From Haladaptatus sp. ZSTT2 (GTDB lineage Archaea; Halobacteriota; Halobacteria; Halobacteriales; Halococcaceae), in NCBI RefSeq assembly GCF_037081775.1, contig NZ_JBAMHQ010000001.1:2542001-2606000 (forward strand): DNA of 64,000 nt. The letters are read 5' to 3'. Position numbers and translations under genes: made by a program. Shown here piece after piece: positions 39,509 to 40,448 of this stretch. Numbering within the stretch: the stretch's first letter is position 1; each line of letters opens with the position of its first letter. Under the pieces are notes generated by a model. The model was given only the letters and a program-made list of their open reading frames with translations. It was not told the origin of the DNA and made no database searches.

Positions 39509-39720
39509 CTTCCCGCGTTCCTGTCTTTCCGTACAGAAACCACCGTGAGAGTGGCACATGATGCGTGGTATCAGTGCACACCAGACGAACGAACTGGCAG
39601 TAGGTTGGGGTTACAAGACTCCTGAAAATTAAGCCAGAACAAACCCCCTGACTGCAGCCGATTCACACACGCTTGACAGCCTCACTCACAGATTGTTCAA
39701 TACCGTTTAATCGCCAGACG
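39509..39720. other. Non-coding interval, nothing recognised
   Basis: This is the first 210 bases of a 301-base gap between the Gln/Ser-rich membrane gene and the DUF7344-like gene. I see no gene, RNA or terminal repeat in it. The rest of the gap holds the phased repeats and a TATA box listed separately. Confidence 0.5.
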
Positions 39721-39765
39721 GAAAACGGTTGAAACGGTTCGAAACAGAAAGAAACGGGTCGAAAC
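39721..39765 (+). repeat. Five 10-bp-phased GAAA(A/C) repeats before the DUF7344-like gene
   Basis: GAAAA at 39721 is followed by GAAAC at 39731, 39741, 39751 and 39761, each exactly 10 bases apart, with GGTT/GGTTC/AGAAA/GGGTC between. Regular helical spacing on one face of DNA, immediately upstream of the TATA box at 39777, suggests a multi-copy regulator-binding array. The arms are not palindromic, so each site would be a direct half-site. Confidence 0.6.
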
Positions 39766-39776
39766 CACTGACCCCC

Positions 39777-39785
39777 TTTATTATC
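39777..39785 (+). promoter_or_regulatory. TATA box for the DUF7344-like gene
   Basis: TTTATTATC starts 33 bases before the ATG at 39810, giving a leaderless or near-leaderless transcript. The phased repeats end 11 bases upstream. Confidence 0.5.
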
Positions 39786-39809: not shown

Positions 39810-40448
39810 ATGACGGTAAGCACCGACTCCCCAAACGCGAACGTGCAGACTGATGCCCTCACGGGTATGCCAGAAGACACAGACGACTCCCCGCTGTCGC
39901 AAGACCAGATCTTCCATCTCTTGCAAAACGAGCGCCGCCGTGCGGTTCTCCGCTACCTCGCGCAGACGAACGAGGACAGCGTCCGCATGCGCGACGTTGC
40001 AGAGCAGGTTGCGGCGTGGGAAAACGACACCACGGTTCAACAGCTGCACTCAGACGAGCGCCAGCGTGTCTACATCGCGCTGTACCAGACGCATCTTCCA
40101 AAGCTCGACGACGAAGGCGTCATCGAATACAACCAGAGCCGCGGCATCGTCGCCCCCACGGCGAACGCCGCTCAGCTCTACCCGTTCATCGACACGGACT
40201 CCCACGACGCCGCCACGTCGAGCCAAGAGGCTGCAGACGGCGCTGACGCCTCCGATGCGCCAGAGACAGACGCAGACAAAGACCTTGCGTGGTCTAACTA
40301 CTACCTTGGTCTCTCCTCTGCGAGCGCCCTCCTCCTCGGCGCGACCTCCCTCAGCCTCGTCCCGGCCGCGCTCATCTCGAGTTACCTCCTGAGCGTGCTT
40401 ACGGTCGCCGCCTTCGGTATCACCGCCCTCGGACAACGGTTCCTCTGA
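39810..40448 (+). CDS. DUF7344-like helix-turn-helix protein with C-terminal membrane helices
   Basis: 212 residues. Residues about 25-110 form an ArsR/winged-helix-like domain (LSQDQIFHLLQNERRRAVLRYLAQ, then RVYIALYQTHLPKLDDEGVIEYNQSRGIV). An acidic linker (SSQEAADGADASDAPETDADKD) leads to two C-terminal membrane helices (ASALLLGATSLSLVPAALISSYL, LSVLTVAAFGITALG). A membrane-tethered DNA-binding protein is likely. The regular repeat array upstream could be its own or another regulator's binding site. Confidence 0.7.
   Translation: MTVSTDSPNANVQTDALTGMPEDTDDSPLSQDQIFHLLQNERRRAVLRYLAQTNEDSVRMRDVAEQVAAWENDTTVQQLHSDERQRVYIALYQTHLPKLDDEGVIEYNQSRGIVAPTANAAQLYPFIDTDSHDAATSSQEAADGADASDAPETDADKDLAWSNYYLGLSSASALLLGATSLSLVPAALISSYLLSVLTVAAFGITALGQRFL

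Follow-up and report, generated by a model that had tools for sequence, protein, structure and literature searches.

A phased, TATA-registered array upstream of a haloarchaeal DUF7344 gene is a probable operator for the encoded winged-helix protein

Introduction

OmpR/PhoB-type response regulators are winged-helix proteins that occupy tandem half-sites ~10-11 bp apart, and in the gas-vesicle promoters of haloarchaea the GvpE UAS is an activator site that adjoins the BRE and contains TGAAACGG. As stated in an excerpt of the EarA study (PMC5512572), archaeal activators typically bind upstream of the BRE, and the excerpt describes EarA of Methanococcus maripaludis as an activator of the fla promoter, where four short consensus sequences lie immediately upstream of the BRE. 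In Sulfolobus acidocaldarius, ArnR and ArnR1 are membrane-bound one-component winged-helix regulators with an N-terminal helix-turn-helix, and regulators of this type form multimers (PMC6396743, PMC13286277). Finally, the winged-helix protomers of BldC from Streptomyces bind cooperatively, head to tail, to direct repeats of variable number, placed at about one per turn (PMC5859096).

The locus analysed here lies in a 64,000-nucleotide stretch of the Haladaptatus sp. ZSTT2 genome (the window), to which all coordinates refer unless a genome or locus identifier is given. A preliminary description of the window had pointed to five GAAA(A/C) elements before a "DUF7344-like" gene, and had proposed that they are half-sites for a cooperative activator or repressor, perhaps the protein that the gene itself encodes. 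We have compared this array with the rest of the genome, with its orthologues and with the promoters of related genes across the order.

Results

The layout that had been reported, including the exact 10-bp period and the 11 bases left before the TATA box, is confirmed by the sequence. GAAAA starts at 39721 and GAAAC at 39731, 39741, 39751 and 39761, in exact 10-bp steps, and the whole array (39721..39765, forward strand) reads GAAAACGGTT GAAACGGTTC GAAACAGAAA GAAACGGGTC GAAAC. It is followed by an 11-bp gap, CACTGACCCCC (39766..39776, forward strand), which presumably contains the BRE, and by the TATA box TTTATTAT (39777..39784, forward strand), 33 bp 5' of the ATG of the DUF7344 gene, whose transcript is probably leaderless. 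On the TATA grid the elements fall at about -54, -45, -35, -25 and -15. Sequence, uniqueness in the genome, conservation in orthologues and register with the TATA box all point to a phased operator array.

The window contains 155 GAAAC, counting both strands, and four of them at one fixed period would be expected by chance ~7e-6 times, summed over periods 6-30. In 300 third-order Markov copies of the window at most three fell in register (one case) versus the four observed, in agreement with the earlier view that such a series would rarely arise by chance. The pattern GAAAMN5GAAACN5GAAAC has a single site in the whole 3.23-Mb genome, this array, with 0 control matches, and the GAAAC N5 triple, a search that had been proposed as a check, likewise matched only here in the 3.23 Mb. 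When up to three mismatches were allowed, the four-element array was found at one locus per genome, upstream of this gene, in the three genomes of the genus (3/3), again with 0 control matches.

The downstream gene (39810..40448, forward strand) encodes a 212-aa protein that, according to Pfam, AlphaFold2 and Foldseek, would consist of a winged helix followed by two C-terminal hydrophobic helices. The label "DUF7344-like" proved too cautious, the protein being a true member of the family: PF24035 (DUF7344) matches aa 35-114 with 108.8 bits, versus a gathering cut-off of 27.8, and an E-value of 1.7e-31. The winged-helix domain (39912..40151, forward strand) was delimited by Pfam and AlphaFold2, the latter predicting helices at aa 31-38, 41-52, 60-71 and 81-101 and strands at 105-108 and 113-116, with pLDDT >90 over most of aa 41-120. 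This predicted helical core with a beta-hairpin wing corresponds to a winged-helix DNA-binding fold, in which helix 81-101 would be the recognition helix. Foldseek returned MarR, HxlR and other winged-helix proteins with probabilities of 0.93-0.99, the best E-value being only 0.015. Two membrane helices are predicted at aa 156-180 and 191-211 (40275..40442, forward strand) from the AlphaFold2 helices and the hydrophobic sequence, and the relatives have similar hydrophobic C-terminal tails. Combining in a single chain a predicted N-terminal helix-turn-helix with membrane segments at the C-terminus, the protein would belong to the ArnR-type class of membrane-bound one-component regulators.

Sequence searches gave no solved relatives, no NCBIfam match and no relatives in phages. 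The relatives, from ~35 named genera, are mostly annotated as "hypothetical protein" or "ArsR family", and our literature search found no paper naming DUF7344, a family without an assigned function. Several plasmid-borne relatives (L240-L244, L248, L249) have glycosyltransferase, nucleotide-sugar, GlmS or polysaccharide genes as neighbours, examples being those of Haloferax mediterranei, H. larsenii, H. gibbonsii, Halorussus vallis and Halobaculum halophilum, an uncontrolled observation that is only a lead towards DUF7344-subfamily genes as possible regulators of surface polysaccharide clusters.

An alignment of the regions upstream of orthologues had been suggested, on the view that promoters lacking the phased elements would speak against an operator; the phased elements are kept. 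In the orthologues at 91% and 77% identity the four GAAACs stand at exactly 10 bp, and over the three sequences 0 of 20 positions vary in the GAAAC elements versus 8 of 15 in the spacers (Fisher p 2.7e-4). Two spacers read GGTTC/GCTTT/GGTCT and AGAAA/TACTC/TTCTC; the last one, GGGTC, is fixed, and the TATA boxes of the orthologues (TTTATTA or TTTATTG) lie at the same distance. Of the five elements described, the four GAAACs are invariant and the first is weaker: GAAAA as such is not conserved and its position only loosely so, the sister species having GGGGAAACGG, with AAAC 9 bp from the next element, and the third species TGAACC, with AAC 10 bp from it. The array is therefore composed of four strict elements and one degenerate distal element. 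A paralogue with 55% protein identity overall and a nearly identical winged helix has, in all three species, a promoter with degenerate AAC elements spaced 11, 10, 9, 10 and 10 bp before CCCTTTATC. The array is absent from DUF7344 genes of other subfamilies, and RMAACRGN3RMAACRG-type pairs elsewhere in the genus are scattered, with no conservation between species.

Conservation in the three orthologues extends to an upstream block, GTTCAATACCGTTTAATCGCCAGACG (also written GTTCAANNCCGTTTAATCGCCAGACG; 39695..39720, no strand assigned), in which the elements are inverted: its reverse strand reads TTAAACGGTATTGAAC, with 10 bp from AAC to AAC. The block is recognisable at subfamily promoters of two other genera, in one genome of g20 (G103) and in several of g28, a genus placed in Haladaptataceae by plasmid matches. 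Its distance to the TATA box is 74 bp here versus 63-64 bp in the other genera, a difference of about one helical turn, such as the gain or loss of a single unit would leave with the DNA face preserved.

For the order-wide survey, 392 genomes were searched with the 86-aa winged-helix domain and the DNA upstream of the best matches was taken. The promoter set, chosen by protein only and blind to promoter sequence, comprised 101 members, 64 after dereplication; 12 of 80 fetched promoters were left out because a simple pattern gave no orientation. Same-strand RMAAC pairs at lag 10, counted with the orthologues of the own genus left out and with the paralogue and a Natronomonas relative included, numbered 22 versus 0.7 in dinucleotide shuffles, and harmonics appeared at 20-22, 30-33 and 41 bp with troughs between. 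Not a single lag-10 pair came from the 43 kb flanking these loci or from the 7 kb preceding other DUF7344 genes. A pair at 9-11 bp was present in 28 of the 64 dereplicated promoters, and many subfamily promoters have just one or two recognisable elements.

Relative to the start of the TATA box, the MAAC cores fall at -15, -25, -35/-34, -45/-44, -55/-54, -65, -75 and -85, with almost none between. By Rayleigh statistics, whose p-values ignore residual relatedness between promoters and genera, also in the one-per-genus version, this TATA-locked grid comprises 119 elements with R 0.72 and a period of ~10.1, or 102 elements with R 0.69 and p ~4e-22 when the own genus is left out; with one promoter per genus (26 genera, 200 draws) the median -ln p was 26 (p ~1e-11) and the minimum 20, compared with at most 6.5 for shuffled upstream DNA, and the 32 elements of 45 TATA promoters of other genes were unphased (R 0.13, p 0.58). 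The preliminary description had held that the same phasing at random in non-promoter DNA would count against it; it is absent from the flanking DNA, and other promoters are without it as well. Among the DUF7344 subfamilies and control promoters tested, the 10-bp grid is confined to this subfamily. The one-turn unit deduced from 4-mer phases is approximately TGMAACRGTT, with MAAC as its core.

One clade of the subfamily (f7) differs in both protein and promoter. Its predicted wing reads YQQNRG in place of YNQSRG, and most members have IPLYQSHLSKLD in place of IALYQxHLPKLD. In its promoters the grid is kept, but positions -36, -46, -66 and -76 are taken by T[GA]AAA[AT] (TRAAA) in place of MAAC: the mean number of MAAC is 1.76 in this clade versus 3.11, and that of the non-C element 1.88 versus 0.11. 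That wing and element differ together is the expected outcome of direct recognition by the encoded protein, though the co-difference amounts to essentially one evolutionary event in one clade.

Similar elements were also seen at other genes. Each of the three species in the genus has a DUF7835 gene, encoding a 66-aa zinc ribbon, with AAAAC, GAAAC and GCAAC phased just before TTTTTAT (L302, G000:C1:1084563-1084828; L301; L303), and related promoters elsewhere keep AAC on a similar grid; this gene is a candidate second target. In genus g22 (L022-L036), GAAACGAAGCGAAACGGGCGGAAAC lies directly 5' of TTATAAG at a conserved ORF whose 81-aa product contains hydrophobic segments, and in one species the GAAACs are retained between spacers that differ (GGGGT, ATACC). 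Halomicrococcus gelatinilyticus has phased TAAAC, GCAAC and GCAAC before TTTATTATT at a gene (L244:12123-12482, reverse strand) that lies near a DUF7344-subfamily gene and encodes a 119-aa protein with no Pfam match. Three phased GAAACs are found in genus g2 (L043-L048) 5' of a conserved small protein of ~107-115 aa, with a weak DUF7344 match ~4 kb off on the opposite strand. In genus g3 (L051-L054), a distinct conserved motif, AATAACGGATTAATAACTATATT, is common to the DNA upstream of genes from another DUF7344 subfamily, which suggests that operators may be subfamily-specific. Overall, GAAACN5GAAACN5GAAAC occurs in 51 of the 392 genomes, at 63 places versus 4 for the reversed pattern. Many of these matches belong to the conserved orthologous groups g1, g2 and g22, and beyond them a rough comparison with other spacings leaves little excess; a genome- or order-wide regulon defined by this pattern was rejected.

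Discussion

We propose, with a probability of about 0.68, that the array is a tandem operator on one helical face, and that the membrane-anchored winged-helix product of the adjoining gene binds there and thereby controls its own promoter. Three observations support self-binding, the possibility raised in the preliminary description: the phased, TATA-locked elements go with the winged-helix subfamily order-wide, other DUF7344 subfamilies are without them, and in one clade the elements and the predicted wing diverge jointly. The operator would consist of tandem one-turn units that share the helix face dictated by the TATA box; the membrane-anchored protein, or an oligomer of it, would lie side by side along this face, upstream of the BRE and TATA box, probably binding cooperatively head to tail, and the encoded protein would act on its own leaderless promoter. 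We lean towards activation, via contact with TFB/TBP, given that the elements lie upstream of the BRE, that most members leave the BRE free and that the TATA register is conserved. Repression by extension over the BRE is somewhat less probable, and would apply especially to the own genus, where the -15 element is nearest to the TATA box.

The helical phasing invites two explanations that need no dedicated regulator. Phased A-tracts, with AAA(A) at 10-bp steps and every element on one face relative to the TATA box, might curve the promoter DNA or position an archaeal histone or TBP. We consider this quite improbable, since CAAC, which is not an A-tract, is phased at least as strongly as AAAC (R 0.78 versus 0.64); the phasing does not depend on A runs. 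Moreover, all orthologues have the same G and C on either side of the A run, and TATA promoters of other genes are without phasing. Alternatively, a decaying 10-bp minisatellite could lie in the promoter by accident, as near-perfect 10-bp repeats of the GAAACGGGTC or GAAACGGACC type do exist in some genomes (such as G349), and outside the conserved groups the count of the GAAAC triple is, by a rough estimate, little above that of other spacings. Such an origin can hardly account for spacers that drift around fixed elements in three species, or for a TATA register that holds across genera in otherwise dissimilar promoters.

It is also conceivable, if unlikely, that the array serves a different conserved regulator (a DUF7344 paralogue, or a GvpE-like or PadR-like protein) and is shared with DUF7835 and other genes. 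The phased elements of the DUF7835 promoters, in the genus and in related ones elsewhere, fit this explanation, and the near-identical winged helix of the paralogue makes cross-regulation within the family hard to tell from self-regulation; against it, the elements accompany a single DUF7344 subfamily in many genera and, in one clade, co-differ with its wing. GvpE itself was rejected: TGAAACGG-N4-TGAACCAA of its UAS is unmatched in the window at up to three mismatches, the array is absent upstream of the GvpA-family genes of this genome (L331, G000:C1:1891500-1898500), and the DUF7344 gene is not a gvp gene. Since the DUF7835 family of the genus has a similar array, the operator is evidently not confined to DUF7344 genes, and it may belong to a small regulon or to a different regulator.

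If the array is indeed bound by the gene's own product, DUF7344 acquires at one stroke a function that can be tested, a DNA motif and a target promoter. Comparative data rarely provide such a signature of direct contact between a regulator and the basal machinery as this order-wide helix-face register with the TATA box, and how archaeal activators reach TBP/TFB becomes directly testable in a genetically tractable haloarchaeon, Haloferax mediterranei having a close relative, WP_004060974.1. As a more tentative generalization, to which we give somewhat less than even odds, these proteins could form a widespread class of membrane-anchored haloarchaeal regulators with a TATA-registered grid, using any subset of positions at 10-bp steps from about -15 to -85 on the TBP-TFB face. 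They would then connect the membrane with the pre-initiation complex as a filament or loop that follows one DNA face, and element and wing would co-evolve.

Among known systems, the sptA cis-element is reported as inverted repeats, unlike the DUF7344 array. OmpR/PhoB-type regulators differ in being bacterial, and the Pfam scan found no receiver domain in the DUF7344 protein. ArnR and ArnR1 resemble it by architecture; they are, however, crenarchaeal archaellum regulators that act on two boxes, not on a one-turn array. BldC is a MerR-like, soluble bacterial protein of 68 residues that reads a 9-bp AATTNNNN(C) repeat and is not homologous by the tests made. EarA acts through 6-bp elements at an archaellum operon, and neither TATA-locked spacing nor an order-wide autoregulatory grid figures in the excerpted description; as in the DUF7344 array, multiple short sites lie just 5' of the BRE. 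The locus presents direct repeats at one-turn spacing; they may form a tandem operator of the BldC/EarA type, in which a protein would bind several such repeats cooperatively in one orientation.
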